DNA of 64,000 bases from Cyclobacteriaceae bacterium (lineage in GTDB: Bacteria; Bacteroidota; Bacteroidia; Cytophagales; Cyclobacteriaceae), in NCBI GenBank assembly GCA_028281285.1, contig JANQKF010000008.1:62001-126000 (forward strand), read 5' to 3'. Under the pieces are notes generated by a model. The model worked only from the letters and a program-made list of their open reading frames with translations, was not told where the DNA came from and ran no database searches. Each line of letters starts with the position of its first letter. The first letter of the stretch is position 1. Both the position numbers and the translations under genes were made by a program. Shown in pieces: positions 3,789 to 22,986 of this stretch.

Positions 3789-3823
3789 TTAATAAGATCT
3801 GCTTAAGTATAAACCAAAGCCTG

Positions 3824-4684
3824 TTATACTGTATCCATGAAGTTCTTCTCCGTCCGATTGAATATGGCCAAACCAACCACAAATATTGCTACAGAGAATA
3901 TACCCGAATAGGCCAATTGAAAATAATCCATTGTACCAGCACCAAGAAAAATAAATCGAAATGACTCCAAAATCGCTGTCATTGGGTTAGCCATTAAAAT
4001 CACCTTGTATTGATCTGGTATTGTAGACAATGGGTAAATGACTGGTGTGCCATACATTAATAACTGTACTCCAAACGTGATCAGGTGCTTCATGTCTCGA
4101 TACTTTGTTGTCATAGAAGAAAGGACAAACCCAAATCCTAACCCTAGAAGCATCATAATTATTATTAAAAGCGGAAACAGCAAAATCTCTGATTGAATGC
4201 TAAACTCAAACTTCCCTGTCGAGACGTAATAGGTGTAAAATGCGAAGAACAGCAACAACTGAATTCCGAACATCACCAGGTTGGTTATGGTAATTGAGAT
4301 GGGCATGATTGCCCTTGGAAAATAGACCTTTCCGAAAATACTAGCATTCTGTGTAAAGGTATTTGAGGTTTTAGTCAGCGAATTCGAAAAATATCGCCAA
4401 CAGGTAACACCAGCCAAATAAAAGAGGAGTTTGGGTAAGCCATCGGTGGAAAGGCCGGCAACATTACCAAAAATCAGAACATAGGTCAGTGTCGTCAGAA
4501 TAGGTTGAATAAAGTACCATAGGGGGCCCAGAACGGTCTGTTTATACTGGGCAACCAAATCCCTCCGAACAAATAGAATCAGAAGATCTTTGTATTGAGC
4601 TATTTCTCTGATCTTCAAATCGAATAATGAACCCCTTGGTTCTATTATAGTATCCCAATGATCTATTTGTTGATTCTTCTGCAT
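3824..4684 (-). CDS. ABC-2 type polysaccharide export permease, Wzm-like
   Basis: A 286-residue inner-membrane permease with about six hydrophobic segments and the family feature AQYKQTVLGPLWYFIQP near residue 44, the conserved entry motif of Wzm/TagG/KpsM-type exporters. It forms the transmembrane half of the exporter whose ATPase is encoded just downstream. About 200 bases separate it from the Wzc-like gene upstream, so it may have its own promoter, although I did not find a convincing one. The length is normal for the family. Confidence 0.88.
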   Translation of the reverse strand: MQKNQQIDHWDTIIEPRGSLFDLKIREIAQYKDLLILFVRRDLVAQYKQTVLGPLWYFIQPILTTLTYVLIFGNVAGLSTDGLPKLLFYLAGVTCWRYFSNSLTKTSNTFTQNASIFGKVYFPRAIMPISITITNLVMFGIQLLLFFAFYTYYVSTGKFEFSIQSEILLFPLLIIIMMLLGLGFGFVLSSMTTKYRDMKHLITFGVQLLMYGTPVIYPLSTIPDQYKVILMANPMTAILESFRFIFLGAGTMDYFQLAYSGIFSVAIFVVGLAIFNRTEKNFMDTV

Positions 4685-4845
4685 TGGAAGTTTTAGTAGT
4701 GGATCTTTTGAGAAAATTTCGTTGTCAAACTAATCAATAAATAAAGCTTGTACCACTTTTCAATTTGCAACCGTATTATGCGTAACATAGGTTTGCCAAC
4801 TTGAGGATTTGTTTATTTGGTTGCTTATTCAGTTAAGAAGTAAAA

Positions 4846-4865
4846 GGTGATTTTCAAAAATCGCC
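4846..4865 (-). terminator. Weak hairpin downstream of the Wzc-like gene
   Basis: An imperfect stem (positions 4846-4854 with 4857-4865, one mismatch on the minus strand) lies 19 bases past the stop codon of the co-polymerase gene. On the minus strand it is followed by TTTTACTT. It could act as a partial intrinsic terminator between the co-polymerase and permease genes. The short loop, the mismatch and the short T run make this uncertain. Confidence 0.3.
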
Positions 4866-4883
4866 ATTCTGACTACAGCAGGT

Positions 4884-7316: not shown

Positions 7317-7318
7317 AG

Positions 7319-8179
7319 TTAGTTATTTCCGAGCACATTAATTATCAGTGTAACACTTGATATTACTGAAACAATGGTAGCCAAGTTTGACAAGGCCGTA
7401 TCTCCGTTACCAATCTCTCTTATTTTAAGAGGTGGAACATAAATCAAATCATCAGGTTGTAGAAAGAAAAACTCGGTTTCAATAAACTTTCGACCTGTCA
7501 CATCGATTTCGTGAATTCGAATTCCATCAGGGTACTGTCTCATCAAAAGCACATGAGAGCGGTCTGCATTAATGGTCAAGTCTCCCGAATTTGCAATGGC
7601 TTCCAAAACATTGGCTTCATATTGTTGGATAATATTTGGCCCCTGACTTGATACCTCACCAAACATTGTATAAGGTATTCCATTTAATCGAACGCCAACT
7701 AAAATATCGAGCACCCCCTTTTTTTCTCTTATCTCTTTCTCTATTTCCTGTTCGAGCTCATTGGTTGTCAGGCCAGCAGCCTTAATTCTTCCCAATGCAT
7801 TGATCTCTACATCTCCATCTTTGTCTATATTATAGCCAGTCAAAAAAGCACTTTCTCTTGCGCTTCGATTATTTCCCCCGGTAAGAGCTGCATTTGCGAA
7901 ACTATTTCTAACAAAAATAGGATAGAACTGTTCGACATTTTCCAAATCCCTACTATAGAAATTGATTTGAAGAATATCATTCGGTTGTAATCTATACTCA
8001 ATCCTGGTCAGTGAAATCAGAGAATCATTTTCAAGCCTTGTAATTCCTTCTTTATTCTGAAGATAAACGATTCTTGAATTGGGAATACAACTAGAGAAAA
8101 GCGAAGCAATCAGAATACCAAATAACAGCGGCTTGACGATTCTACCGCTACGGCTCGTCTTCTTTTTTCTTAGGTCCAT
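7319..8179 (-). CDS. Polysaccharide export outer-membrane lipoprotein, Wza-like
   Basis: A Poly_export/SLBB-type protein. From the ATG at 8179 it has 286 residues and a lipoprotein signal: positively charged start, hydrophobic stretch at about 17-29, then FSSC with Cys31 as the lipid-modified residue. The export domain begins YRLQPNDILQI and an SLBB-like segment follows (PYTMFGEVSSQGPNI). A short hydrophobic stretch lies at the C-terminus. The open frame extends upstream to an ATG at 8209, but that overlaps the end of kdsA by 23 bases; the 8179 start leaves seven bases between the genes and a conventional signal peptide. It should form the periplasm-to-surface channel that works with the co-polymerase encoded two bases downstream. 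Confidence 0.9.
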   Translation of the reverse strand: MDLRKKKTSRSGRIVKPLLFGILIASLFSSCIPNSRIVYLQNKEGITRLENDSLISLTRIEYRLQPNDILQINFYSRDLENVEQFYPIFVRNSFANAALTGGNNRSARESAFLTGYNIDKDGDVEINALGRIKAAGLTTNELEQEIEKEIREKKGVLDILVGVRLNGIPYTMFGEVSSQGPNIIQQYEANVLEAIANSGDLTINADRSHVLLMRQYPDGIRIHEIDVTGRKFIETEFFFLQPDDLIYVPPLKIREIGNGDTALSNLATIVSVISSVTLIINVLGNN

Positions 8180-8186
8180 ATGTTGT

Positions 8187-9017
8187 CTAATACGCATTTC
8201 CGTATTCAAACCCTACTTTTAACATTTCCAAAAACGGTCCAATCTCCCCCAAAGGAATCATGTTAGGCCCATCGCTTTTTGCAGTTGAAGGATTCGGATG
8301 CGTCTCAATGAAAAAGCCATCTACGCCTACGGCCGCTGCCGCTCTGGCAAGGTAGCTCGCAAATTCTTTTTGCCCTCCAGAACTTCCTCCTGCACCGCCT
8401 GGTTGCTGAACACTATGAGTAACGTCAAATATTACAGGGGAATATTGGCGCATGGTTGGTAAGCTTCTCATGTCAACAACCAGATTATGGTATCCAAACG
8501 AAGCACCTCGCTCTGTCAAACATACCTTCTGATTTCCTGTGGATTTTACCTTATCGACAGCGTATTGCATATCTTCTGGCGCCATAAACTGTCCACGCTT
8601 GATTTTTACTGTTTTTTCCGTCTTTCCAGCAGCCACTAAAAGATCTGTTTGTCGACATAAATAAGCGGGAATTTGCAATGCTTGCGCCACGTCACTCACA
8701 GGATTTGCCTGATTTGGCTCATGAATATCAGTGACAATGGGTAGGTCAAATTCTGTTCTGACCCTGTCTAATACACGTAATCCTTCATCCAACCCCACTC
8801 CTCGATATGAATTTACAGAAGTTCTGTTGGCCTTATCGAAAGATGCTTTGAATATATAATGAATATCGAGTTTATCACAGACTTCTTTAACCTCTTCTGC
8901 CACTCTTGCACATATGTCCCAACTCTCAATCGCACAAGGTCCTGAGAACAAGACTATTCGCTCTCCACCTAAAAATACTTTCTCCGTTATGTGAAATCCT
9001 TCTTTATAAATCTGCAT
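8187..9017 (-). CDS. kdsA: 3-deoxy-8-phosphooctulonate (Kdo-8-P) synthase
   Basis: A 276-residue DAHP/Kdo-8-P synthase fold enzyme that condenses phosphoenolpyruvate with arabinose 5-phosphate. Family signatures include GPCAIES near residue 25, IFKASFDKANR near 55 and ETHPNPSTAKSDGPNM near 237. Length matches KdsA rather than the longer DAHP synthases. It overlaps kdsC by 14 bases, so the two consecutive steps of Kdo synthesis are coupled. Location directly ahead of the polysaccharide export genes suggests that Kdo supply, for lipid A core or for a Kdo-containing glycan, is co-regulated with export. Confidence 0.95.
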   Translation of the reverse strand: MQIYKEGFHITEKVFLGGERIVLFSGPCAIESWDICARVAEEVKEVCDKLDIHYIFKASFDKANRTSVNSYRGVGLDEGLRVLDRVRTEFDLPIVTDIHEPNQANPVSDVAQALQIPAYLCRQTDLLVAAGKTEKTVKIKRGQFMAPEDMQYAVDKVKSTGNQKVCLTERGASFGYHNLVVDMRSLPTMRQYSPVIFDVTHSVQQPGGAGGSSGGQKEFASYLARAAAAVGVDGFFIETHPNPSTAKSDGPNMIPLGEIGPFLEMLKVGFEYGNAY

Positions 9018-9549
9018 TACCTATTAAGCCTTCAATTAATTGTTCATAATGCCCTTGTGCCTGAAGCACCAAATCAGCTAGTTCTCTCAATGCACCTTGC
9101 CCTCCCTTCGATTTAAGTATCAAGTCGGCATGCTCCTTTACGGTGAAATGACCATCATTTGGAGTAGCTCCAAGGCCGCATTTTTTTAATACCATCAGGT
9201 CATTGATGTCATCACCAATATAGGCTACCTCATTAGCATTCAAACCCAATTCCAGCAGTAAATCATCAAACGTAGCCAACTTGTCACTAATACCATGACG
9301 GTGTACGTCAATTTTCAACTCCTCACACCTATTCCTCACAACTTGTGACGAACGGCCTGTGATGACCCCCGTCATTATCTCAAATTGCCTGAGATATTTT
9401 ATTATCTGACCGTCCTTTACATTGAATCGCTTGTACTCAAGACCTGAATTGTCATAGATGATGCCACCATCGGTGAGTACACCATCAACATCAAAAATAA
9501 TAGCTCGGATGAGCTTTGCTTTATTGAGGATTTCCGAGGATATAGACAC
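9004..9549 (-). CDS. kdsC: Kdo-8-phosphate phosphatase, HAD family
   Basis: A 181-residue HAD-superfamily phosphatase of the compact KdsC type without a cap domain. The nucleophile motif FDVDGVLTDG contains Asp20 and Asp22; GITG-type motif II is seen in VITGRSS, and the metal motif is IGDDINDL. The subfamily signature GLEYKRFNVKDGQ follows motif I. It removes phosphate from Kdo-8-P to give Kdo. It is the first gene of the minus-strand polysaccharide block and overlaps kdsA downstream. A promoter-like box lies 17 to 24 bases upstream of its start. Confidence 0.93.
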   Translation of the reverse strand: MSISSEILNKAKLIRAIIFDVDGVLTDGGIIYDNSGLEYKRFNVKDGQIIKYLRQFEIMTGVITGRSSQVVRNRCEELKIDVHRHGISDKLATFDDLLLELGLNANEVAYIGDDINDLMVLKKCGLGATPNDGHFTVKEHADLILKSKGGQGALRELADLVLQAQGHYEQLIEGLIGNADL

Positions 9550-9565
9550 GGTGCCTAGGTTTGAA

Positions 9566-9573
9566 CAAAAATA
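9566..9573 (-). promoter_or_regulatory. Candidate Bacteroidota -7 box for the kdsC-kdsA-export operon
   Basis: On the minus strand this reads TATTTTTG, a full match to the TAnnTTTG -7 consensus of Bacteroidota. A TTTG lies upstream but only 15 bases away, shorter than the usual 19-21, so the -33 element is not convincing. The predicted start of transcription is roughly ten bases before the kdsC ATG. The divergent 134-base gap also must hold the promoter of the penicillin-acylase gene. Confidence 0.4.
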
Positions 9574-9683
9574 GCACTAAATTTTAACCAAACATAATCT
9601 TCATCATTGCTAAACTAAGTGCACCATTATTATAGTCTTGACAGTATTTCTATATTTAAAGCTATTCAAGTCAATCCCTTCCT

Positions 9684-12104
9684 ATGAGAAACATAAAATT
9701 TATGTTGAGCTTACTTATCACATTGGGGGTATGGTATGGCCTCAACACCAAGTTTGGTCAAATCCCACCTCTTGGAAAGTTTCTAGACCCATTTCATGGT
9801 TTTTGGCAAAACGAACAAACAGAGACGAACTCACCGGAAACCGAGTTGTCTCTTGAAAGGCTTTCTGCTCCTGTATCGGTTCACTATGATCAGCAATTAA
9901 TCCCTCATGTGTTTGCTCAGAATGATTTGGACCTTTACCGTGCCCAGGGATACATCACAGCGCAACATCGCTTATGGCAAATGGAATTCCAAACTATGGC
10001 ATCTGCCGGGAGACTCTCTGAAATTGTCGGAGCAGCTGCCATAGACTATGACAGGGGCCAAAGAAGAAAAGGAATGGTTTACGGGGCCCAGAATACCGTA
10101 GATCTGATGTCAGAAAACCCTATTCAGAAAGCGTTGATAGAGGCTTATCGTGACGGTGTGAATAGTTATATAAATACTCTGTCAGATGGTGAGTTACCTA
10201 TTGAATACAAACTCCTGGACTATAAGCCAGAACAATGGACGCTCAAAAAGACTGCGTTGCTATTGATGTATATGACCGATATGTTGGCCGGTGGAGAATC
10301 GGACCTTGAGAATACAAATGCATTGAAACTCTGGGGTAAGGAAGTCTTTGATCTCCTTTATCCTGATTTTTACGAGGATCAAGATCCTATAATTCCTATA
10401 GATACTGACTGGAGTGGGATCAACGTGGTCCCGGTAGAAAAACCTGATACCGAATTCCCGATGGATTTTGTATCGCAAACAATGGTCAAGCCACACCCAC
10501 ATAATGGAAGTAATAATTGGGCGGTTTCTCCTGAAAAATCGGCAAATGGAAACGCCATTCTGGCCAACGATCCTCATTTAGGGTTGAATCTCCCTTCCAT
10601 TTGGTATGCCATGCAGCTTTCTACACCGGAAAAGAGAACGTACGGGGTTTCATTACCCGGAGCCTTAGGCATTGTTATCGGGCACAACGATTCCATTGCC
10701 TGGGGACTGACCAACGCTGGAAGAGATGTGAAAGACTGGTATAAAATTCAATTCCAGGATAACAATAGGACTGCTTATGCCTATGAAGGATCCTGGCGAA
10801 CCACCACCAAAGAAATCGCGGAAATCAAAGTAAGGGGAGGCAAAACGGTCTACGATACGATTGTCTACACTCATCACGGCCCGGTAAGCTATGATCATAA
10901 CTTTGGAAATACCAATGGAAAAGTCGGGTATGCGATGAAGTGGGCTGGACATATGCGCAGCAACAATCAGCAGACTTTGCTCGAACTGAATCGTGCCAGG
11001 AACTATGAAGACTATAAGAATGCTCTAGCGCACTTTTCTGCCCCTGCGCAGAACTTTGTCTTTGCCTCTACTTCTGGCGACATTGCTCTGTGGGTTCAAG
11101 GGAAGTTCGCCAATAAATGGCCCGATCAGGGAAAGTTCCTAATGGATGGCACCCTATCGTCTCATGAGTGGCAAGGATTTATTCCACAAGAGCACAACGC
11201 CCACACTAAAAATCCCGAACGTGGTTTTGTGAGCTCAGCCAATCAGCATCCCACTGACGAAAACTATCCCTACCATACGTATTCTGATGGCTATGAGACT
11301 TACCGAAATCGTGTAATTAATGATTTTTTCAGAGCAAACGATAATATTACCGTGAGCCACTTTCAAACACTACATAACAACAATTATAACCTCAAAGCCG
11401 CTGAGTTGCTCCCAACCATGTTTGATAGTATGGAAACTTCCGATTTGACTGCAAATGAGGTGGCTGTTCTGGAAGAAGTCAAGCGCTGGGATTTCAACAA
11501 TGATATCGAAAAAAATGGACCGACCATATGGGAAATATGGTGGAGAAAGCTCTTCGTTATGGCTTGGGACGAAATGAGAAATGACTCTATAGCCTTTGAT
11601 TACCCAAGCTCGTATCAAACAATATGGTTACTCAAAAACCGCCCTGATTTCAAATTCTTTGATATTCAAGACACAGAGGAGATTGAAACTGCAAGTGATC
11701 TATATCTGAAATCATTTAAAGACGCAGTGAACGATTTGGCAGAATTGAAAGAAAATGATCGCTACTCTTGGGGTGATTACAAACGAACATATGTTGGACA
11801 TTTACTTCAGGCATTACCTGCATTTTCAAGATTCAATCTTCCGATTGGGGGCAATGGTGGTATCGTGAATGCCACAAGCCAAAACCATGGCCCTTCATGG
11901 AGAATGATTGTAGAAATGTCAGACACTCCAAAAGCCTGGGCGATTTACCCTGGAGGTCAATCCGGCAATCCTGGAAGTAAATACTACGATAACATGGTTG
12001 ATGACTGGGCCGCAGGAAAATATTTTGAGGCGCTCTTCATGAAAGATGCTGAATCAAATTCTGACCAACTTTTGTTTAGCCAAACTCTAACTCCATCCAA
12101 ATGA
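9684..12104 (+). CDS. Penicillin acylase family (peptidase S45) Ntn-hydrolase
   Basis: An 806-residue precursor of the S45 family, which cleaves amide bonds of beta-lactams, acyl-homoserine lactones or related acyl-amides. An N-terminal hydrophobic segment (about 5-20) suggests export. The alpha-chain region ends at NGSNNW, where Gly275-Ser276 is the expected autoproteolysis site and Ser276 the N-terminal nucleophile of the beta chain; WAVSPEKSANGNAILANDPH follows as in the family. A SQNHGPSWRM motif lies near the C-terminus. It is transcribed against both flanking polysaccharide cassettes and overlaps the next small membrane gene by four bases. The natural substrate cannot be deduced. Confidence 0.92.
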   Translation: MRNIKFMLSLLITLGVWYGLNTKFGQIPPLGKFLDPFHGFWQNEQTETNSPETELSLERLSAPVSVHYDQQLIPHVFAQNDLDLYRAQGYITAQHRLWQMEFQTMASAGRLSEIVGAAAIDYDRGQRRKGMVYGAQNTVDLMSENPIQKALIEAYRDGVNSYINTLSDGELPIEYKLLDYKPEQWTLKKTALLLMYMTDMLAGGESDLENTNALKLWGKEVFDLLYPDFYEDQDPIIPIDTDWSGINVVPVEKPDTEFPMDFVSQTMVKPHPHNGSNNWAVSPEKSANGNAILANDPHLGLNLPSIWYAMQLSTPEKRTYGVSLPGALGIVIGHNDSIAWGLTNAGRDVKDWYKIQFQDNNRTAYAYEGSWRTTTKEIAEIKVRGGKTVYDTIVYTHHGPVSYDHNFGNTNGKVGYAMKWAGHMRSNNQQTLLELNRARNYEDYKNALAHFSAPAQNFVFASTSGDIALWVQGKFANKWPDQGKFLMDGTLSSHEWQGFIPQEHNAHTKNPERGFVSSANQHPTDENYPYHTYSDGYETYRNRVINDFFRANDNITVSHFQTLHNNNYNLKAAELLPTMFDSMETSDLTANEVAVLEEVKRWDFNNDIEKNGPTIWEIWWRKLFVMAWDEMRNDSIAFDYPSSYQTIWLLKNRPDFKFFDIQDTEEIETASDLYLKSFKDAVNDLAELKENDRYSWGDYKRTYVGHLLQALPAFSRFNLPIGGNGGIVNATSQNHGPSWRMIVEMSDTPKAWAIYPGGQSGNPGSKYYDNMVDDWAAGKYFEALFMKDAESNSDQLLFSQTLTPSK

Positions 12105-12463
12105 GATTCTTTTATAATCTTCTTCTCACTGCTGTATTGGCGATAATCTTGAATCTATTTCTGCCGTGGTGGTCAATAATGCTATCGGCATTTGTTACCG
12201 GATTCTCCATCAGACTGAAAAAAAGTGCCGTCTTCTTCGCCCCATTTCTTGGTATCTGGCTACTCTGGATCGTTTATGGTTATTCCGTTTCCTCCGCTAA
12301 TAGCTTCACCCTATCCACAAAAATAGCGAATCTATTACCCCTGGGGGGAAATGTAATCCTTTTGACACTCATTACCGGAATCATTGGTGGGTTGGCTGCT
12401 GGAGCCGCGGGTATAACCGGTAGGTTATTCTCAGAGTATTTCATATCCCCTGATAAGAATTAA
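12101..12463 (+). CDS. Small hydrophobic membrane protein, unrecognised
   Basis: A 120-residue protein that I do not recognise. About four hydrophobic segments can be seen (roughly 5-24, 25-40, 44-63 and 82-106), the last being rich in Gly and Ala. The start codon overlaps the stop of the penicillin-acylase gene (ATGA), so the two are probably made together. It converges with the MBOAT gene with only 12 bases between stop codons. No function is proposed beyond an integral inner-membrane location. Confidence 0.75.
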   Translation: MRFFYNLLLTAVLAIILNLFLPWWSIMLSAFVTGFSIRLKKSAVFFAPFLGIWLLWIVYGYSVSSANSFTLSTKIANLLPLGGNVILLTLITGIIGGLAAGAAGITGRLFSEYFISPDKN

Positions 12464-12475
12464 ACCATGACCAAG

Positions 12476-13933
12476 TTAAAACTGAAAATAGATGAAGTCC
12501 ACGGGTTCTCCTCCAAAAAGGATAAGAAGGAATATTATCCCGTAGTATATTGACCATCTCAACCAAACGGGTACTCTAATTGACGTGAAGTCAAGCATAT
12601 GTTCCCTTTCCCTTTGCAGCCATTCTCCCACGATTAAAAGTCCCAAGAAAAGAACTGGAAATGTATCTATGCCTTGTGGAAGAGTAAAGACAGATCGATC
12701 GAAAATTCCAGCCAAATAATTCCATCCGTCTTCAATCGTTCTGGCTCTAAAGAAAATTAAGGAGATGTTGGCAAGACAAAAAGTAAATAGCATTCTTCCC
12801 CACCCAATCAGGGAGATAAACCCTCCTCCAAGGGAATCTTTCTTTTTTAACTTTTTGGAACCAATTCCGCTCAATCTGCCAAAGAGCACAGTGGGTGTAA
12901 GGTAAAGTGCATGGATGAGCCCGAATGCTATATAATTCCAACCAGCACCATGCCAAATCCCTGACAGGCCAAATGTAATCCATGCAGCAAGCAGTAAGCC
13001 CCATTTATGCCAATACCTGAATCTTATGCTTAATGGCAGGAAGACATAGTCGTTCAACCATGTATTGAGAGAAATATGCCATCTCCGCCAGAATTCCGGA
13101 ATTGATCGAGAGAAAAATGGATAACGAAAATTCGTCATGAGTTTCACACCAAATAACCGGGCTGTACCTATCGCTATATCGGAATATCCACTAAAATCGG
13201 CATAAATCTGAAATGAAAAGAAGATTGAACCGACTAGAAGGGTAGACCCTGAGAGGTCTGCATATTCCCCAAAAGCCATGTTCACAAATCTCGCCAGGTT
13301 ATCTGCCAAGACCACTTTTTTAAAAAGTCCCACCAGGATTTGTCTTAAGCCGTCCTTTGCCTCATTTAGATCGAACGACCTTTTATTGAGTATTTGTGGC
13401 AATAAATTGGAAGCCCGCTCAATCGGCCCTGCCACCAATTGAGGAAAAAAGCTAACAAATGCCGCAAAGGATATAAAATCATTAGTAGGCTTAAGTTGTC
13501 CTCGATATATATCCAACGAATAAGACATTGTTTGAAAGGTGTAGAAAGAAATCCCTACGGGTAAAATCACGTTGATCGTACTCCCTGCAAAGTCTATCCC
13601 TAATGTGCTAAACGCACCTACCCAAGACTCAACAAAGAAATTGTAATATTTAAAAAAGCCGAGTAGCCCAAGATTAGCCAAAAGGCTAATTCGAAGGAAT
13701 AACCTTTTGCGATTCAGGCCTTCTGCATTGGCAATTTTTTGACCTATGACAAAATCTACAATTGTGCTAATAAATATCAAGGAAAGAAAACGGTAGTCCC
13801 ACCATCCATAGAACACATAACTAGCGACAAGCAAGAACAGGTTTTGTGCCTTCAGACTCTTTTGAACCAGAAACCAATAGACGAAAAAGACTATTGGCAG
13901 AAAGATGGCATAATCAAAGGAGTTAAATAACAT
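12476..13933 (-). CDS. MBOAT family membrane O-acyltransferase (AlgI/DltB-like)
   Basis: A 485-residue polytopic acyltransferase of the type that moves acyl groups across or at the inner membrane onto extracytoplasmic polymers. Family motifs are FWRRWHISLNTWLND (281-295) and FGLSGIWHGAGWNYIAFG (321-338), with His328 as the predicted catalytic residue and His286 in the first motif. It overlaps the SDR gene upstream by 11 bases and is the last gene of the FkbH-ACP-MaoC-SDR cassette. AlgI normally works with a periplasmic SGNH transferase (AlgJ/X); none is encoded next to it here. It is the likely final transferase for the acyl group made by the cassette. Confidence 0.93.
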   Translation of the reverse strand: MLFNSFDYAIFLPIVFFVYWFLVQKSLKAQNLFLLVASYVFYGWWDYRFLSLIFISTIVDFVIGQKIANAEGLNRKRLFLRISLLANLGLLGFFKYYNFFVESWVGAFSTLGIDFAGSTINVILPVGISFYTFQTMSYSLDIYRGQLKPTNDFISFAAFVSFFPQLVAGPIERASNLLPQILNKRSFDLNEAKDGLRQILVGLFKKVVLADNLARFVNMAFGEYADLSGSTLLVGSIFFSFQIYADFSGYSDIAIGTARLFGVKLMTNFRYPFFSRSIPEFWRRWHISLNTWLNDYVFLPLSIRFRYWHKWGLLLAAWITFGLSGIWHGAGWNYIAFGLIHALYLTPTVLFGRLSGIGSKKLKKKDSLGGGFISLIGWGRMLFTFCLANISLIFFRARTIEDGWNYLAGIFDRSVFTLPQGIDTFPVLFLGLLIVGEWLQREREHMLDFTSIRVPVWLRWSIYYGIIFLLILFGGEPVDFIYFQF

Positions 13934-14642
13934 TCACAGCAGCATTTACAGGGATATTGACCCCATTTAGGTGACTCGTAGAATTAACCAGGAAGCTCAC
14001 CAGTTCAGCCACATCCTGCAAAGGAAGCAGGTGCTTCAGTGGATGATTGGCCTCCATTGATTCCAGCACTCGTTCATCCAACACCTTGGACAACTCTGTT
14101 TTCATTAGTGAGGGAGAAATGGCATTGGAGGTGATGTTGAACTTGGAATTTTCAACCGCAATTGCCTTGACCATGGAAAGTAAATAGGCCTTGGAAGCAG
14201 TATATGACGAACAACCAATGGGAGGAGTACCAATAAGAAAGTCTGTAAGGATCGTGATGATTTTTCCAGATTTCTTTTTCCTGAATAGTTTGACACATTC
14301 CTGCATTAATCGGACCTGTGGTAAGATGTTGTTTAGAATGTCTCGCTCGAATACTTGGACATCCGTTTTATGAAAATGAGAAACCTCCATCCCTGAAATC
14401 GCATTATTCACAAGGACGTCCAAATTCATTGATGGTAATTGATCCAGCAATTTCTGCAAGCTTGGTTCATTAGTAAGATCCCATTGAATGGCCCTAGAAT
14501 TGGGATACTCTTTCTCTATCTCTTTCGCGCTTTTTGACGAATTGAAATAGGTAAAATACACCTGATTATGGCTATCCGTTACCAGCGTTTCAAGTATCGC
14601 TTTACCCAAGCCAGAAGCACCTCCGGTAATTAGAATATTCAT
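13923..14642 (-). CDS. SDR-family reductase (FabG-like) with altered catalytic serine
   Basis: A 239-residue classical short-chain dehydrogenase. The cofactor motif is TGGASGLGKA (6-15), the NNA motif is at 79-81 and the catalytic YTASK places Tyr147 and Lys151. At the position of the usual catalytic serine of FabG-like enzymes the sequence reads IITILTDF, so the residue aligns to Thr133, followed by a loop one residue longer than in FabG. Neighbours are a hotdog hydratase (two bases upstream) and the MBOAT acyltransferase (overlapping). It most likely reduces a ketone on a carrier-bound acyl group, but the Ser change leaves room for another role. Confidence 0.88.
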   Translation of the reverse strand: MNILITGGASGLGKAILETLVTDSHNQVYFTYFNSSKSAKEIEKEYPNSRAIQWDLTNEPSLQKLLDQLPSMNLDVLVNNAISGMEVSHFHKTDVQVFERDILNNILPQVRLMQECVKLFRKKKSGKIITILTDFLIGTPPIGCSSYTASKAYLLSMVKAIAVENSKFNITSNAISPSLMKTELSKVLDERVLESMEANHPLKHLLPLQDVAELVSFLVNSTSHLNGVNIPVNAAVNVI

Positions 14643-14644
14643 AA

Positions 14645-15031
14645 TCAGATTCTTTTCACTTGAACATCTCCTTTAGCGACCGATAACTCATCCCGCTTAA
14701 TCGTAAACTTAAAATCATAAAGAGCCACTGAATCAAAAAAATCTGAAACGCTGGCCTCAAAATTAAGCCTGTCACCCAAGTAAACGGGTTTGCGATATTT
14801 AATGCTTTGTGAAATAATCATCACATTTTCAATAGGCAATACCTCACCAACAAAATAGGAAACAAAGCCATTGAGTATGTTACCATGCATGACTTTGGAA
14901 TCAAATCCTTTTTCAAGCGCATAAGCATCATCAACATGAAGCTTATTTCTATCCTGAAAGATATCCGTAAATGCCTTATAGGCCTCTTCGGTAACTGTAA
15001 CTTCAAAAGAAAATGAGTCTCCTACATTCAT
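14645..15031 (-). CDS. MaoC-like (R)-hydratase, hotdog fold
   Basis: A 128-residue single-hotdog protein of the MaoC/(R)-specific enoyl hydratase family. The active-site motif FQDRNKLHVDDAYA supplies Asp27 and His32, equivalent to the Asp/His dyad of R-hydratases, and KVMHGNILNG follows. These enzymes add water to, or remove it from, acyl thioesters. It overlaps the ACP gene by four bases and is followed after two bases by the SDR gene, so hydration/dehydration and reduction of an acyl-ACP are probably linked. The ACP partner makes an acyl-ACP rather than acyl-CoA substrate likely, by inference. Confidence 0.88.
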   Translation of the reverse strand: MNVGDSFSFEVTVTEEAYKAFTDIFQDRNKLHVDDAYALEKGFDSKVMHGNILNGFVSYFVGEVLPIENVMIISQSIKYRKPVYLGDRLNFEASVSDFFDSVALYDFKFTIKRDELSVAKGDVQVKRI

Positions 15032-15270
15032 TGCAGTTTGGCTACAATAGCGTCACACATCTCTCCCACGTTTTTGAAAGATTGGATTTCGGATGATGTG
15101 AATCTTAACTTAAAATGCCTTTCTATCTCGACTACCAACTGAATGTGATTCAGAGAATCCCATTCTTCAATATCTTTGGCAGTTGTTTCTCTTTCCAGCA
15201 CGATATCGTCATTTTCAAGGACATCGATAAAAATCTCATTGAACTGAGAGATTACTTCTTCGAAATTCAT
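15028..15270 (-). CDS. Dedicated acyl carrier protein
   Basis: An 80-residue acidic carrier protein. The phosphopantetheine attachment site is Ser39 in EEWDSLNHIQLV, with flanking helices typical of ACPs. It differs from the fatty-acid AcpP motif (DSLD) and is therefore likely to be a pathway-specific carrier. It lies between the FkbH-like gene (150 bases upstream, no gene visible in the gap) and the MaoC gene (four-base overlap). In FkbH systems a partner ACP receives the glyceryl group derived from 1,3-bisphosphoglycerate; this is the natural candidate here. Confidence 0.92.
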   Translation of the reverse strand: MNFEEVISQFNEIFIDVLENDDIVLERETTAKDIEEWDSLNHIQLVVEIERHFKLRFTSSEIQSFKNVGEMCDAIVAKLQ

Positions 15271-15420
15271 AATCTGGATAATTTGATACTACTCGATCAC
15301 CTCAAAAATGGCTTTTTCTTTCTATTTACTTTTGCTACGAGCATCTACATAATTAGGGAAATCTAATGCAATCTCAAAACCACCCGAATAGCTAACGCCC
15401 ATCCAAAGCTGTCACTCATC

Positions 15421-17151
15421 TTAAGATTCTGCACTTTGAATATAGACATCGAAGGGACTAAACTTTTCAAGTTCTAAATACCACAGCTCATCCTCTCGTT
15501 TAAAGCCCAGATTCTCATAATGATTCTTGACAAGCATGTTTTTCTTGGTGGGTAGATACTCCCCTACTATCCACTTAAAACCAAGGCTCTTTGTTCTTTC
15601 AACCAGATAATTCATAACAAAATGTTCTACACCTCTCTCCAACACTCGACAACTCATAATCCAGGTATCTAGAAATAGTTCTTCGTGGTTGCGTTCCTGA
15701 GCAATCAAAATGCTTATAAGGCCGTAGTCTCCAAATTTGTCCGAAAGCTTTACCACAAATCCATGATCAGTCTCACTATTCCTAATATCTGTAATTTCGG
15801 ATTCAGTGTATCGAATTGTTCTCAGATTGAACTGATTAGACCTTTGTGTAAGTTGAGCAATACGAGGAACATCAAAGTCATTGAAAGGTCCAAAGAAACC
15901 CTTCATCTTCAAACTCGCCAAAAATGTCGACATGTCTGTAAACGACTTGCTCAGATTCTTTCTCTTTGCCTCTTCTTGGTATTGTCTGGTTCTGTCGGAA
16001 TCATTTTCTGAATAGGTGGTCGTTTCAAATAGGTTCATCCTCACCAGAAAAGGGAGATACTCGGCCGGGTCTTCTGGAAGGTCGGGAACCGTGACCTCTG
16101 GTAATTCGCTAAGCACGATATCTCTCTCAACCGGATTGTCATCGATGAATACCATTGAATCGAAACCAATATTCAGTACTTCTTGAATATATCTTATGTT
16201 ATCTGCCTTATTGGACCAATTTGCCACAAATACCGCAATATCTTCCAGCTTCAAGATCATCTCGGGATGTTTTTCAAATGGTTCTTTGGCCACCTCTTCC
16301 CGGTTTTTGCTGCAGACCGCCAGAATGATCCCTCGTTCCTTGAGTTGTTTCACCCATCGCTGCAGATCAGAGAAAGCTTTGCCGATACCGAGATCTCCAA
16401 TTTCTATATTCTCTATCCCATCATCTCCTATTATACCTCCCCAAAGCGTGTTGTCCAGATCAAGGATCAGACATTTGTTGATACGCCCGGTAAACGCCAG
16501 CAGCATTTGAACCAACTGCTCTGCTATGGATACAGTAAAGTCAATAGAAAAGGCCAGGTTAGAATTGACATAGTGTTGAGGGGAAAATGCATTTTCAAGA
16601 CCAACCCGTGTTATTAGAGACTGAACATCGGCCAAATGAATATGTAGGCTTTGGGTACATAATTCCTCTAGCAGTAAATTAGATTTGTTTATTTGATGAT
16701 ACAGGGATGAGTCAACCTTATGGCTTATTGAACCATATATATTGTCATTTATAGGTTCAAGATTGGAAATAATAACCTGGCAATCCGACCTTTCCTTTAA
16801 CATTTGGGCCAGCCCATTGACGTCTTCAACAAATTTCTTGGCAAACACCCTTCGATCTTCTACGCTCAAATCGTAAAATTTCGGAATCAACTTCCGAGAT
16901 GAATAACTGATATAAACGAAATCTGGACTGAACTCGTAAAGCCCTGAGCTGGGGTTTAAAATGGAAGATTCTATTTGGTCAAAATCAGCCTCATAGATTT
17001 CCAAATTCAACTCATTAATGACGCCTTGATATTCAAGGGCCTTGGCTAAAAACTGGGAGGCATGATTTGCCAGTATAGCCACTTTGATGACAGACTTGCC
17101 ATTTGATAATTCTAGCCCCTTTGCTTTTTTTCTTAACGTATTGAAATCCAT
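15421..17151 (-). CDS. FkbH-like HAD-IIIC phosphatase/acyltransferase
   Basis: A 576-residue FkbH-family protein. Residues 1-220 form an N-terminal alpha/beta domain, often SGNH-like in this family but without an obvious catalytic GDS here. The HAD domain starts at LILDLDNTLWGGIIGDDG with Asp231 and Asp233, and ILAVCSKN carries Cys280, matching the VCSKN motif of glyceryl-transferring FkbH enzymes. A GNAT-like C-terminal part (about 470-565, DTWIMSCRVLERG then FKWIVGEYLPTKKN) follows. Characterised relatives dephosphorylate 1,3-bisphosphoglycerate and load the glyceryl unit on an ACP. The gene heads the ACP-MaoC-SDR-MBOAT cassette, and the downstream enzymes could convert that unit into another acyl group. 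Confidence 0.9.
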   Translation of the reverse strand: MDFNTLRKKAKGLELSNGKSVIKVAILANHASQFLAKALEYQGVINELNLEIYEADFDQIESSILNPSSGLYEFSPDFVYISYSSRKLIPKFYDLSVEDRRVFAKKFVEDVNGLAQMLKERSDCQVIISNLEPINDNIYGSISHKVDSSLYHQINKSNLLLEELCTQSLHIHLADVQSLITRVGLENAFSPQHYVNSNLAFSIDFTVSIAEQLVQMLLAFTGRINKCLILDLDNTLWGGIIGDDGIENIEIGDLGIGKAFSDLQRWVKQLKERGIILAVCSKNREEVAKEPFEKHPEMILKLEDIAVFVANWSNKADNIRYIQEVLNIGFDSMVFIDDNPVERDIVLSELPEVTVPDLPEDPAEYLPFLVRMNLFETTTYSENDSDRTRQYQEEAKRKNLSKSFTDMSTFLASLKMKGFFGPFNDFDVPRIAQLTQRSNQFNLRTIRYTESEITDIRNSETDHGFVVKLSDKFGDYGLISILIAQERNHEELFLDTWIMSCRVLERGVEHFVMNYLVERTKSLGFKWIVGEYLPTKKNMLVKNHYENLGFKREDELWYLELEKFSPFDVYIQSAES

Positions 17152-17300
17152 TGATGCATACTCCGATCATTGATACTTGACTTAAGATAAATTGACACGC
17201 TAAAACTCAATGAACAGGCTATTTGATAAAGACGATAACTAGAAAACTATTTTACGCTAAAATTTTGATAAGACCACCTATCAATCAAAGTAATATCCAC

Positions 17301-17308
17301 TAATTTTG
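17301..17308 (+). promoter_or_regulatory. Candidate -7 box ahead of the serB-serA fusion gene
   Basis: TAATTTTG is a full match to the TAnnTTTG consensus, but no TTTG is found 19-21 bases upstream. Transcription would begin near 17315, which leaves only about six bases ahead of a TTG codon at 17321 but about 15 ahead of the ATG at 17330, supporting the ATG as start. Confidence 0.35.
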
Positions 17309-17329
17309 GCCAATTGAAACTTGAACCAT

Positions 17330-19231
17330 ATGTCTTCGGGAACCCAAGAGAAATATTTTGTAATAGACTTTGACAGCACCTTCACAAAAGTTGAAGCGCT
17401 GGATATACTGGGTGAAATATCGTTACAGGACCATCCCGAAAAAGAGGATAGACTTCAAAAGATAAAAGAAGTGACTGACCTAGGTATGGAAGGTACAATG
17501 TCTTTTCGCGATTCTTTAACTAAACGAATCGAATTGTTGGATGCAAATAAGAAACATCTACCTCTTCTGATTGAACGACTTTCCCAGTTAGTATCAAAGT
17601 CCATATCTCGGAATAAAACGTTCTTTCAGAGCAATCCAGAGAACACCTTCATCATTTCAAATGGTTTCAAAGAATTCATTGTCCCTGTTGTTACAGATTT
17701 GGGAATTAAAGCAGAAAATGTGTTCGCCAATGACATGGTGTTTGACCTTCATGGCAATCTGATCGATTTCAACAGAGACAACCCTCTTTCTTCGAACGGA
17801 GGTAAGGTAAAACAGCTATCGGCCTTAAACCTTCAGGGCAATGTGCATATGATAGGAGACGGATACACGGACTATGAGGTGAAAGAAGCCGGGGTTGCTG
17901 ACCGTTTTTACGCCTATACTGAAAACATTGAACGCGATCCGGTTAAAAAGAAAGCCGATCATATCGCACCAAGTTTCGATGAAATTTTGTACCATAATAA
18001 TATGAATGGGGCCCTATCCTATCCAAAAAACAGGATCAAGATGCTTCTCCTGGAGAATGTGCATTCGCATGCATTGGACAAGTTAAGAGAGGATGGATTC
18101 AATGTGGAGGAATACCCGGCAGGATTGGATGAAGAGGAGCTGTGTGAAAAGATTAAGGACGTATCAGTTCTTGGAATTAGGTCCAAAACTCAAGTAACGG
18201 CTAAAGTACTGGCAAATGCAAATAGATTGATGGCCATTGGTGCTTTTTGTATAGGAACCAATCAAATTGATCTTGACGAATGCCTCAGGAAAGGTGTGGC
18301 GGTCTTCAATGCTCCTTATAGTAATACACGTTCAGTAGTTGAGCTGGCAATAGCCGAGATAATTATGTTGATGCGCGGTGTACCCGATAAGAGTGCGGCT
18401 ATGCATCAAGGAAAGTGGAACAAATCTGCACGCGGTAGCTATGAAATTCGTGGAAAAAAACTGGGTATTATAGGCTATGGAAATATAGGCTCACAGCTTT
18501 CTGTACTTGCCGAGAACATGGGGATGAATGTCTACTATTATGATATGGAGGAACGTCTTGCGCTAGGCAATGCCACCAAATGTGATGATATAGAATCTCT
18601 GCTAAAATTATCTGATGTGATATCCTTGCACATTGACGGACGGCCTGAAAATGGAAATTTCTTTAATAAAAGACATTTCGATTTGATGAAGGACGGAGCA
18701 GTTTTTATCAATCTTGCTAGAGGCCCTGTTGTAGACATATCCGCCTTAAAGCAAGCCATTGAATCAGGCAAGATTTCCGGTACCGGAGTTGATGTATTCC
18801 CTTACGAGCCAAAGAGTAATGATGAAACTTTCGAGTCAGAGTTAATCGGGCTACCTAACACAATTCTCACCCCGCATGTTGGTGGAAGCACTCAGGAAGC
18901 ACAAGCGAATATCGCAGATTTCGTGCCTAATCAAATCATTAACTACATCAATAGAGGAAATACAGCCAACAGTGTCAATTTCCCGAATTTGACGTTACCT
19001 CCACTTGAAAATGCTCATCGACTTATTCATATCCATGAAAATGTACCTGGTGTAATTGCCAAGATCAACAATGTATTTGCCGAACATGAGATTAATGTCG
19101 TTGGGCAGTATCTAAAGACCAATGAGATCATTGGGTATGTAATCACCGATATTGACAAGGAATATAGCAAAGAGCTCATCAAAGCACTTAAGAAGATTGA
19201 CCATACCATAAAATTTAGAGTGCTATATTAA
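17330..19231 (+). CDS. serA: Phosphoserine phosphatase-like / D-3-phosphoglycerate dehydrogenase fusion
   Basis: A 633-residue two-enzyme fusion for serine synthesis. Residues 1-220 form a HAD-IB phosphatase: nucleophile motif VIDFDSTFTKVEALD with Asp13 and Asp15, ISNGFKEF, and MIGDGYTDYEV, as in phosphoserine phosphatase. The remainder is a D-3-phosphoglycerate dehydrogenase: substrate-domain GAFCIGTNQIDL, NAD motif GIIGYGNIGSQL, a catalytic His in LTPHVGGST, and a C-terminal ACT domain (IHENVPGVIAKINNVF) that usually binds serine for feedback control. The frame runs upstream to a TTG at 17321, but the ATG at 17330 is preferred. Steps one and three of the phosphorylated serine pathway would thus be on one chain; a SerC-like gene lies 7 kb downstream. 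Confidence 0.92.
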   Translation: MSSGTQEKYFVIDFDSTFTKVEALDILGEISLQDHPEKEDRLQKIKEVTDLGMEGTMSFRDSLTKRIELLDANKKHLPLLIERLSQLVSKSISRNKTFFQSNPENTFIISNGFKEFIVPVVTDLGIKAENVFANDMVFDLHGNLIDFNRDNPLSSNGGKVKQLSALNLQGNVHMIGDGYTDYEVKEAGVADRFYAYTENIERDPVKKKADHIAPSFDEILYHNNMNGALSYPKNRIKMLLLENVHSHALDKLREDGFNVEEYPAGLDEEELCEKIKDVSVLGIRSKTQVTAKVLANANRLMAIGAFCIGTNQIDLDECLRKGVAVFNAPYSNTRSVVELAIAEIIMLMRGVPDKSAAMHQGKWNKSARGSYEIRGKKLGIIGYGNIGSQLSVLAENMGMNVYYYDMEERLALGNATKCDDIESLLKLSDVISLHIDGRPENGNFFNKRHFDLMKDGAVFINLARGPVVDISALKQAIESGKISGTGVDVFPYEPKSNDETFESELIGLPNTILTPHVGGSTQEAQANIADFVPNQIINYINRGNTANSVNFPNLTLPPLENAHRLIHIHENVPGVIAKINNVFAEHEINVVGQYLKTNEIIGYVITDIDKEYSKELIKALKKIDHTIKFRVLY

Positions 19232-20751: not shown

Positions 20752-22986
20752 ATGGAACAGCTCTTATCGGAACATTATGGATTGACCAATTGCTCTTTGA
20801 GCAAAATGGACGGTTATATAAGCACCAATTATAAAGTAGCCTCGGATCAGGGCACTTTTGTTCTTAAAGTATACCCTCAATCCAAATTTGAAGATGTAAC
20901 CGGGGAAACGGCTGTAATCAAGGAATTAACCAATTTGCCTGAAAAAGCCGTCTCCAGACCTGTAGAAAATAAAAATGGACGATCCCTATCAATTACAGAG
21001 TCGGGAGTGCTCCGATTACTAACCTTTGTATCAGGAAAGTTTCTTGCTGAGGTGGACCATACCATTCCAATGTTCGAATCAATGGGGCAATTCCTGGCAT
21101 CAATGGACAAAGACTTGATCGGGTTCCGTAACAGCGCCATCGAATCCAGAAAATTGGATTGGGATCTTCAACACATAAATCAGAGCCGTCAACTTAAGGA
21201 AGTTATACGTTCACCAGAGGACAAAAAGGTAGTCGATTACTTTTTTCTCCAATGGGATCAGCATGTTTATCCGGTTCTCCCATCCTTAAGAAAGTCAATC
21301 ATTCATAACGATGGCAACGATTGGAATATCCTGGTTAATGACAATAAGGTTTCTGGTATAATCGATTTCGGTGACTGCTCATATACTCCTCTCATCAATG
21401 AACTGGCAATTGCTATCACCTATGCCATTTTTGAAAAGGAAGACCCTATAAAATGGGCCAAGCCTATCATTTCGGGTTATCATCAAATTATTGAATTAGA
21501 AGAACAGGAACTCGATATTCTTTATTACCTAATTGCCGGTCGATTATGTATGAGCGTTTGCAAGTCGGCCAATGAAAAAAATATTCAGCCCGACAGTGAA
21601 TACATTACGATTAGTGAAAAGCCCGCCTGGGATTTACTTAGAAAATGGATTGCCATTAATCCAATCCATGCACGATCTGAATTCTACGCTGCAGTTGGAA
21701 AAGAGACTGCGCCCACTCGTGATATTGACGAAATAATAAGTAAGCGTCTTGAACACTTGAGCCCTATACTTTCGATGTCTTACAAAACTCCGATTTACAT
21801 GCATGGTGCAGCCTTTCAATATATGTATGACCAGTATGGAAACACCCTTTTGGATGCTTATAACAATATTCCTCATGTTGGACATCAACATCCAAAGGTC
21901 GTTGAAGCGGGTCAAACCCAGATGGCAAAACTCAATACCAACACAAGGTATCTTTATAATGAACTTGCCGAGTACGCTGAACGACTTCTGTCCAAATTTC
22001 CGGAGAGTTTGAACAAAGTTTATTTCGTGAATTCAGGTAGTGCAGCCAGTGATTTGGCAATTCGCTTAGCTCAAGCGTATACAAACAACCCCGGAATTGT
22101 GGTGATGGAACATGGCTATCATGGAAATACCCGTCAGGGAATCGAAATCAGCCAATACAAATATGATAGCAAAGGAGGAACAGGAAAGTCAAATTCGATA
22201 GTACAAGCTGCCATTCCCGACACATACCGAGGAAAATACACTGGCCTCAATGCGGGCATTCAGTTCGCAAAAGATCTGAAGACTCAAATAGAAAATCATC
22301 CCATAGACCTTAGTGCATTTGTTGCCGAACCAATTGTGGGTTGTGGAGGACAGGTTCCATTAGCAGAGGGTTATTTGAAGGAAGTTTACCCGATGATCAG
22401 ATCCCGGGGAGGGCTTTGCATTAGCGATGAAGTACAAACCGGATTTGGAAGGATGGGAAGTCACTTCTGGGGCTTTGAGTTGCAGGAGGTGGTACCAGAC
22501 ATAGTCATCTTAGGAAAGCCTATGGCCAATGGGCATCCAATGGGTGCTGTCGTGACAACGACCGAAATAGCTGAAGCTTTTGACAATGGGATGGAGTTCT
22601 TCAGCTCTTTCGGGGGAAATCCGGTTTCATGTGCTATCGGGAGCGCTGTTTTGCACGTCATCGAAGAAGAGAATCTTCAAGAAAACGCCCTTTCCGTAGG
22701 AAACTATTATATGGAACAACTTGGGAGACTTCAAAATGACTTTCCTGAAATTGGCGATGTTCGTGGATCAGGACTCTTCATTGGAATGGAACTCGTCAAA
22801 GATGATTCCAAATCTCCCAATACGGCTCTTGCATCAAGAATAAAAAATGAGCTAAGAAATCAGAATGTACTTGTAAGCACGGATGGACTCTTTGACAGTG
22901 TGATCAAAACCAAACCCCCACTTTGCTTCTCGCATCAAAATGTTGATGAGGTTGTCGAAAAAATCCAAACAATTTTAAAGAATTAA
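20752..22986 (+). CDS. APH-type kinase fused to class III PLP enzyme (kinase/phospho-lyase candidate)
   Basis: A 744-residue fusion. Residues 1-300 are an aminoglycoside-phosphotransferase-fold small-molecule kinase: catalytic HNDGNDWN (185-192) with Asp187, and metal motif IIDFGD (203-208). Residues 320-744 are a class III aminotransferase fold with GSAASDLA near 429, the Asp of [10 protein letters not shown] (558-567) and the PLP lysine Lys589 in LGKPMANG. The two halves match human hydroxylysine kinase and the phospho-lyases PHYKPL/ETNPPL, which together phosphorylate and then eliminate phosphate from an amino alcohol. Longer bacterial relatives also carry a peptidase M23 segment, absent here. 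The substrate (hydroxylysine, ethanolamine or similar) is inference. Confidence 0.88.

Follow-up and report, generated by a model that had tools for sequence, protein, structure and literature searches.

A possible FkbH-fed, carrier protein-dependent acylation cassette beside capsule export genes in a Cyclobacteriaceae bacterium

The window analysed here, 64,000 nucleotides of a Cyclobacteriaceae bacterium (GenBank assembly GCA_028281285.1, contig JANQKF010000008.1, positions 62,001 to 126,000), carries five open minus-strand genes at 12476-17151 in the order FkbH, acyl carrier protein (ACP), MaoC, SDR, and membrane-bound O-acyltransferase (MBOAT). We propose, at a probability of roughly 0.5, that this cassette encodes an ACP-dependent, Dlt-like system that would put a three-carbon acyl group on a surface polymer. 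Comparison with related loci makes an FkbH-fed route from ACP to MBOAT probable, while the identification of the acyl group as lactyl, the most weakly inferred step, is tentative and falls somewhat short of an even chance. The target would likely be the nearby capsule.

In the proposed route, FkbH would take glyceryl from 1,3-bisphosphoglycerate and load it onto the ACP, as expected from knowledge of its family. The MaoC protein would then dehydrate glyceryl-ACP, the enol product of which amounts to pyruvyl-ACP, and the SDR protein would reduce pyruvyl-ACP to lactyl-ACP; these two steps are suggested by the enzyme types and their pairing. MaoC could act in this way because glyceryl-ACP has a C3 hydroxyl and a C2 hydrogen. 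The first-pass annotation of this DNA had envisaged hydration and reduction, but dehydration followed by reduction is the likelier sequence after loading. Finally, the tyrosine in the C-terminal FIYFQF tail of MBOAT would receive the acyl group from the ACP, and an SGNH-type transferase would hand it on to the polymer, following the mechanism known for DltB/DltX/DltD and PatA/PatB.

Profile searches returned a family match above cut-off for each of the five proteins, bearing out the gene identities, order, and strand given by the first-pass annotation. The window FkbH exceeds the curated cut-offs of both PF21211 (FkbH_N; 1.1e-43, 149.8 bits against 27) and TIGR01686 (2.7e-92, 309.4 bits against 146.65), which places it in the FkbH family, and it is the sole match of its kind in its own genome. 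Among aligned relatives, D231 and D233 are kept in 58 of 58 and C280 in 53 of 58, residues that we take to be catalytic. The nearest solved relative, and the only one at E values up to 1, is 3slr (4.6e-108, residues 21-383), the uncharacterised BF1531 of Bacteroides fragilis, which matches just the first two thirds of the window protein. Ser39 of the ACP, already singled out from the sequence, lies within WDSL and is serine in all 48 aligned relatives. The solved matches of the ACP are topped by 2lml (9.8e-19), presumably GmACP3 of Geobacter metallireducens, an ACP that, going by the title, reportedly has a putative role in lipopolysaccharide synthesis. All residue alignments were made without near copies (L108, L015, L023, L024, L029, L030, L020, L021, L100, L109, L132, and L054) and, for each family, without members below score limits. 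The description of the cassette as tightly spaced suits four of its genes, with ACP, MaoC, SDR, and MBOAT overlapping their neighbours or sitting 2 bases apart, but not FkbH, which lies 150 bases upstream of the ACP gene.

The proposed acylation role of the cassette, put forward earlier from the sequence, is strengthened by comparison: the genes recur together, the solved matches of MBOAT are of the DltB type, and the protein ends in an acyl-shuttle tail. That MBOAT would take its acyl group from the carrier protein is supported by gene neighbourhood. The window MBOAT belongs to its family by PF03062 (89.8 bits against a cut-off of 27), and its only two solved matches are the DltB-type structures 6bug (2.6e-27) and 8jem (4.6e-27). 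H328 is kept in 33 of 34 relatives. Moreover, residues 480-485 read FIYFQF, fitting the FXYXXF acyl-shuttle motif. As PMC12148441 describes it, the acyl group travels from MBOAT to the SGNH protein on the tyrosine of this hexapeptide; in the Dlt system the motif is part of DltX, and PatA and its like have it at the C-terminus of MBOAT itself. Counted by eye, 30 of the 34 MBOAT relatives have such a C-terminus, the exceptions being L022 and L151, which are contig-cut, and two copies in L137. An SGNH-type gene directly follows 26 of 36 MBOAT copies and directly precedes 2 (31 of 33 chosen loci). The proteins encoded by these genes mostly share the G and S of the GxS motif, an N, and an H, and their profile reaches DltD weakly (6o93, 0.0055). 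A structural model of the protein from L005, with a mean pLDDT of 67.6 and low quality in its central part, resembles SGNH-type folds; platelet-activating-factor acetylhydrolases head its matches, and DltD, OatA, and PatB entries come lower.

Relatives of the cassette were collected as 73 FkbH loci, from genome scans (30 loci on genome contigs), genome searches, four plasmid loci, and the window itself, and were grouped into 61 clusters at 80% FkbH identity, which are still related to one another. Because the loci were found by their likeness to the window FkbH, the share with MaoC and SDR is biased, the co-occurrence of the two less so. Each cluster was represented by the locus with fuller flanks and more families. 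With the window's own genome included, the searches gave matches in 10 of 395 genomes from the phylum at E 1e-100 and, at 1e-90, in 23 of 395 from the class and 7 of 390 from the order; among the 59 nearest genomes there were 6 matches at E 0.001, of which only the window's own genome and its sister species (G007) fell below 1e-100. A Legionellaceae contig (L011) and the Bacteroidota loci L053, L131, L137, L139, and L151 show the same five-gene order, which recurs in other bacteria with FkbH proteins of about 45-50% identity. A Campylobacterota contig (L008) has it with an added methyltransferase, and a Leptospiraceae contig (L022) has the order MaoC-SDR-FkbH-ACP-MBOAT. Others hold a simpler FkbH-ACP-MBOAT-SGNH core (e.g., L005 and L057). 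In two Sinorhizobium meliloti plasmid records, MBOAT is followed by a gene with a TonB-receptor annotation, which stands where SGNH would be expected, and then by ACP and FkbH; Sinorhizobium accounts for 39 of 48 matching plasmid records, and gene order was read in these two. Together, these loci show a modular cassette: FkbH, ACP, and MBOAT, in most cases joined by an SGNH-type transferase, make up the core, to which swappable tailoring parts are added.

Three other accounts of the gene set were rejected. Chance neighbourhood does not fit its recurrence in other bacteria, and a secondary-metabolite cluster does not fit five genes none of which is of the assembly-line type, though very large open reading frames, one of them with an FkbH match, flank the locus in one relative, L002. 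Foreign base composition was not found either, the cassette genes having 36-41% G+C against 41% for the window.

An alternative to export is that the acyl-ACP is used inside the cell, for example to N-acylate an amino sugar, and that MBOAT works separately, as an O-acetyltransferase drawing on acetyl-CoA. Such a reading would suit the aminotransferase and hexapeptide acyltransferase-type genes of the capsule region, the many FkbH-ACP loci that have no MBOAT nearby, and the presence in the same genome of a similar MBOAT that lacks an ACP or FkbH beside it. Yet in 31 of 61 clusters, including the simple sets of L005 and L057, MBOAT and FkbH are no more than 6.5 kb apart, and in L053 two ACP genes each stand by an MBOAT-SGNH pair. 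We regard intracellular use as unlikely. The L053 genes (4245-14804) form a row with a single FkbH, two ACPs, a MaoC-SDR pair, and three MBOAT-SGNH pairs; this locus perhaps makes and exports two acyl groups in parallel.

Several observations nevertheless count against the Dlt-like export proposed here. The window MBOAT scores 155 bits against TIGR04091, the DltB equivalog, where the cut-off is 375. No SGNH gene was found beside it, although one is present in the sister species and most relatives. The window MBOAT shares 51% identity with the genome's second MBOAT, which lacks a neighbouring ACP or FkbH, and 37-40% with the four cassette MBOATs of other taxa that were compared, so its acyl donor is not readable from its sequence. 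In 30 of the 61 clusters (17 of which count among the 44 with complete flanks), no MBOAT lies within 6.5 kb, which means that such FkbH-ACP pairs have other uses as well. The examples from Legionellaceae, Campylobacterota, and Leptospiraceae are single contigs that may be misbinned, and the L008 FkbH falls within a Bacteroidota clade on the FkbH tree. KAS III, ACP, and SDR genes about 4-10 kb beyond the window could feed other acyl groups, and the window cassette lacks the methyltransferase gene of its sister.

As to the missing partner, the SGNH step may perhaps be served from elsewhere in the genome. Two tandem SGNH-like genes follow the second MBOAT, which lies on the same contig at a distance of about 44 kb, and a further, orphan SGNH-like gene lies on a different contig; one of the tandem genes or the orphan would be a candidate. 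A search of the genome for a copy of the sister's SGNH protein gave a single weak match (E 0.002). The second MBOAT and its tandem neighbours (L082, 7635-11036, outside the window) form a row in which the MBOAT also ends in FIYFQF. The earlier description of the cassette as a self-contained route was accordingly too strong, since the window has no SGNH gene of the kind usually found beside such MBOATs and the cassette is an accessory insertion.

The MaoC and SDR proteins carry the residues expected of active enzymes. The best solved matches of MaoC are enoyl-CoA hydratases and a hydroxyacyl-thioester dehydratase; D27 is kept in 22 of 23 relatives and H32 in 23 of 23, and in the SDR protein both Y147 and K151 are kept in 16 of 16. 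We take all four to be catalytic. T133 of the SDR protein stands at the place of the catalytic serine, where relatives have S (11 of 16) or T (5 of 16). The two genes travel together: in the 27 clusters with full flanks and an MBOAT, the window included, both are present in 12, neither in 14, MaoC alone in 1, and SDR alone in 0 (Fisher p 7e-7). The corresponding counts are 13, 29, 2, and 0 for the 44 full-flank clusters and 20, 36, 5, and 0 for all 61. Of the five clusters with MaoC alone, L141 is the clear case, which counts against the proposed route; L004, L009, and L142 are cut loci, and L099 and L142 hold a MaoC-led protein with a weak SDR-like part. In L041 the two are fused in one protein. 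L053 and L054 belong to the same FkbH cluster, yet L053 has the pair and L054, which is hidden behind it as representative, does not. The FkbH tree, on which loci with cut flanks bear the label of their visible genes and from which L031 and L144 were omitted, requires 17 changes of the MaoC label; at least 12 of these fall on well-supported branches. The label is no more clustered than shuffled ones (94 of 500 as low), a further point against the route as proposed, and the gene pair is therefore no lineage trait. From these changes and the co-occurrence counts, it follows that the MaoC-SDR pair is gained and lost often, almost always together.

What the pair makes is less certain. Instead of lactyl, MaoC and SDR might yield pyruvyl, 2-hydroxy-3-oxopropionyl, or a short chain derived from a CoA thioester, such as 3-hydroxybutyryl. 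MaoC and SDR are also a usual pair of the fatty-acid type, L141 does without the SDR, and C3 oxidation of glyceryl-ACP is proposed for the methoxymalonyl route in PMC7489565. An oxidative route, however, needs no MaoC, the cassette has no ketosynthase, thiolase, or CoA ligase gene, and the pair is added to or removed from otherwise similar FkbH cassettes. A product other than lactyl seems rather doubtful, and lactyl is kept as the tentative choice.

Other tailoring genes occur in related loci. A gene for a VOC (glyoxalase-fold) protein lies within 6.5 kb of FkbH, on either strand, in 11 loci of 10 clusters (L130, L138, L147, L140, L002, L026, L059, L060, L097, and L098/L100, with L097 a weak match); the L130 protein matches PF13669 at 3.2e-14. 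None of these has MaoC, which is found in 25 of the 61 clusters (p 0.004), as expected of alternative routes. We would guess that the VOC protein is an alternative tailoring enzyme, e.g., a C2 epimerase. A methyltransferase is present in 8 clusters, with no preference for MaoC or VOC; methylation of a 2-hydroxyl would suit glyceryl and lactyl alike, in agreement with its presence both with and without MaoC. Methyltransferase, VOC, and MaoC with SDR thus look like interchangeable tailoring on a common core. A more sweeping reading, which we consider speculative and rather unlikely as a whole, is that of a modular and often reshuffled toolkit in several phyla that would convert the glycolytic intermediate 1,3-bisphosphoglycerate into a range of three-carbon acyl groups, carried on ACP, destined for surface glycans, and leaving by MBOAT-SGNH outlets. 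Loading would then proceed without ATP and tie surface decoration to glycolysis. Within such a toolkit, a cassette with no tailoring genes would give glyceryl, one with the methyltransferase O-methylglyceryl, one with VOC an epimerised glyceryl, and one with MaoC and SDR lactyl.

The closest comparison is the sister species. In G007 (locus L039), FkbH, a methyltransferase (301 amino acids [aa]; PF13489, 2.4e-18), ACP, MaoC, SDR, MBOAT, and an SGNH-like gene are followed by KdsC, KdsA, Wza, and Wzc, all in one direction, and the five shared proteins are 65-86% identical to those of the window. The earlier statement that no ketosynthase or methyltransferase is present is correct for the window cassette, but the sister's cassette holds a methyltransferase, and KAS III genes lie outside the window. 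A search of the window's FkbH-ACP gap for a methyltransferase remnant found nothing convincing. The lack of the sister's methyltransferase and SGNH genes could mean that the window copy is a decaying remnant of a fuller cassette and acylates nothing now. We consider this very improbable: the five frames are full length with conserved residues, several full sets, L011 and L131 among them, also lack a methyltransferase, L139 also lacks an SGNH gene after its MBOAT, and other SGNH-like genes exist in the genome.

Named from family matches and order, the genes to the left of the cassette are KdsC, KdsA, Wza, Wzc, Wzm, and Wzt, beyond which lie genes for an epimerase and an aminotransferase. The KdsA- and KdsC-like genes lie between the export genes and the cassette, as do, on the opposite strand, a penicillin-amidase-like gene and a 120-aa gene; a SerA-like gene follows on the right. 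KdsA has a match in 16 of 19 genomes of the genus (the window's own and the sister's counted), and the KdsA region was compared in 13 of the 14 others (G015 left out). In all 13, the cassette is absent at the capsule place. The amidase gene and SerA stand on the KdsC side in 12 of the 13 (with few genes between in G011), with the 120-aa gene called in 8 of those 12; in G009, SerA directly adjoins KdsC. Moreover, the site differs, as the cassette lies between the 120-aa gene and SerA in the window and between SerA and KdsC in G007. For these two reasons, the cassette is an accessory insertion beside conserved export genes, made at two different places in the window and the sister. Its position beside a Wza/Wzc/Wzt locus, as first described, holds in the sense of adjacency, but the cassette is not within the capsule operon.

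The cassette is best seen as a variant of known MBOAT-type envelope acylation with FkbH as loader, not as a new kind. With the Dlt system (DltA, DltC, DltB, DltX, and DltD; teichoic acid D-alanylation) it shares a carrier protein, an MBOAT whose best solved match is DltB, the acyl-shuttle tyrosine motif, and, in relatives, an SGNH protein. It differs in having FkbH in place of the ATP-using adenylation enzyme DltA, whose domain type is absent from the five genes; in carrying the shuttle motif on MBOAT itself and not on DltX; in adding MaoC and SDR; in scoring below the DltB cut-off; and in having no DltD-like neighbour. The PatA/PatB and AlgI-type acetylation systems share the C-terminal FXYXXF tail and, with the relatives, an SGNH partner; according to PMC12148441 they use acetyl-CoA and no carrier protein, unlike the ACP-fed window cassette proposed here. 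FkbH with a stand-alone ACP is shared with polyketide and peptide pathways (glyceryl-ACP, methoxymalonyl-ACP, and 2-O-methylglycerate), as is, in the sister, the methyltransferase. However, the cassette has no assembly line, it has MaoC and SDR for two dehydrogenases, and its outlet is an MBOAT; the methoxymalonyl-ACP set of FkbG-K type, in which two dehydrogenases and an O-methyltransferase accompany FkbH and ACP, is not present in the window.

The literature bears on both ends of the route. FkbH proteins are considered to load glycerate from 1,3-bisphosphoglycerate onto ACP, and a vioprolide FkbH domain is stated to activate D-3-phosphoglycerate (PMC7489565, PMC10099666, and PMC3679948). FkbH action followed by O-methylation is proposed for suomilide and varlaxin (excerpts of PMC10143770), and glyceryl and lactyl groups are listed among polysaccharide modifications (excerpts of PMC4432689). 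In the openly licensed literature, our searches turned up nothing on FkbH-fed enzymes for making glyceryl or lactyl groups and attaching them, although such a cassette may be described elsewhere. There, FkbH with MBOAT turned up, by title, aeruginosin-type peptides only; FkbH with acyl carrier protein and O-antigen was not found, nor was FkbH with lactyl, and searches for gellan glyceryl genes and bryostatin lactyl loading gave nothing usable. If true, the proposal would name an enzyme set that can be tested, extend carrier protein-fed MBOAT export beyond D-alanylation, and perhaps allow the acyl group of a capsule to be predicted from the tailoring genes present.

Table 1. Features of the cassette and its surroundings (window positions)
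Feature	Position	Strand	Remarks
FkbH-family protein, proposed glyceryl loader	15421-17151	-	576 aa; PF21211, TIGR01686
FkbH-ACP gap, 150 bases	15271-15420	-	Holds the 301-aa methyltransferase gene in sister G007
ACP	15028-15270	-	80 aa; PF00550 1.9e-6; Ser39 codon 15154-15156, proposed phosphopantetheine site
MaoC-type hotdog (de)hydratase, proposed glyceryl-ACP dehydratase	14645-15031	-	128 aa; PF01575 8e-12
SDR oxidoreductase, proposed pyruvyl-ACP to lactyl-ACP reductase	13923-14642	-	239 aa; PF13561 1.2e-29, PF00106 3.5e-28
MBOAT, proposed acyl mover across the membrane	12476-13933	-	485 aa; PF03062 2.8e-25
Codons of MBOAT C-terminal FIYFQF, including Tyr482	12479-12496	-	Fits acyl-shuttle motif FXYXXF
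Extent of insertion, between 120-aa gene and SerA-like gene	12464-17320	.	
Export-type genes Wzt, Wzm, Wzc, and Wza	2469-8209		Named from family matches
Penicillin-amidase-like gene and 120-aa gene	9684-12463		Between capsule genes and cassette
SerA-like gene	17321-19231		ACT domain
APH-type phosphotransferase/class-III aminotransferase fusion	20752-22986		Single protein

Some neighbouring genes deserve mention in their own right. The first ~240 residues of the SerA-like protein have no Pfam match and resemble a HAD domain of the phosphoserine-phosphatase type, and the protein may thus unite two steps of serine synthesis. A SerA-like enzyme uses 3-phosphoglycerate, near the proposed FkbH substrate, yet the gene is present in genus members without the cassette. 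The amidase gene, found in 12 of the 13 other genus members, is missing from the stretch of G009 and was not seen in that of the sister; the 120-aa protein next to it has no Pfam match. On the same contig outside the window, the capsule region includes two KAS III-type genes, an ACP, an SDR, and a methyltransferase-like gene (L063, 1848-5681), a possible second acyl-ACP route. Farther to the right of the cassette, a single protein fuses an APH-type phosphotransferase domain to a class-III aminotransferase.

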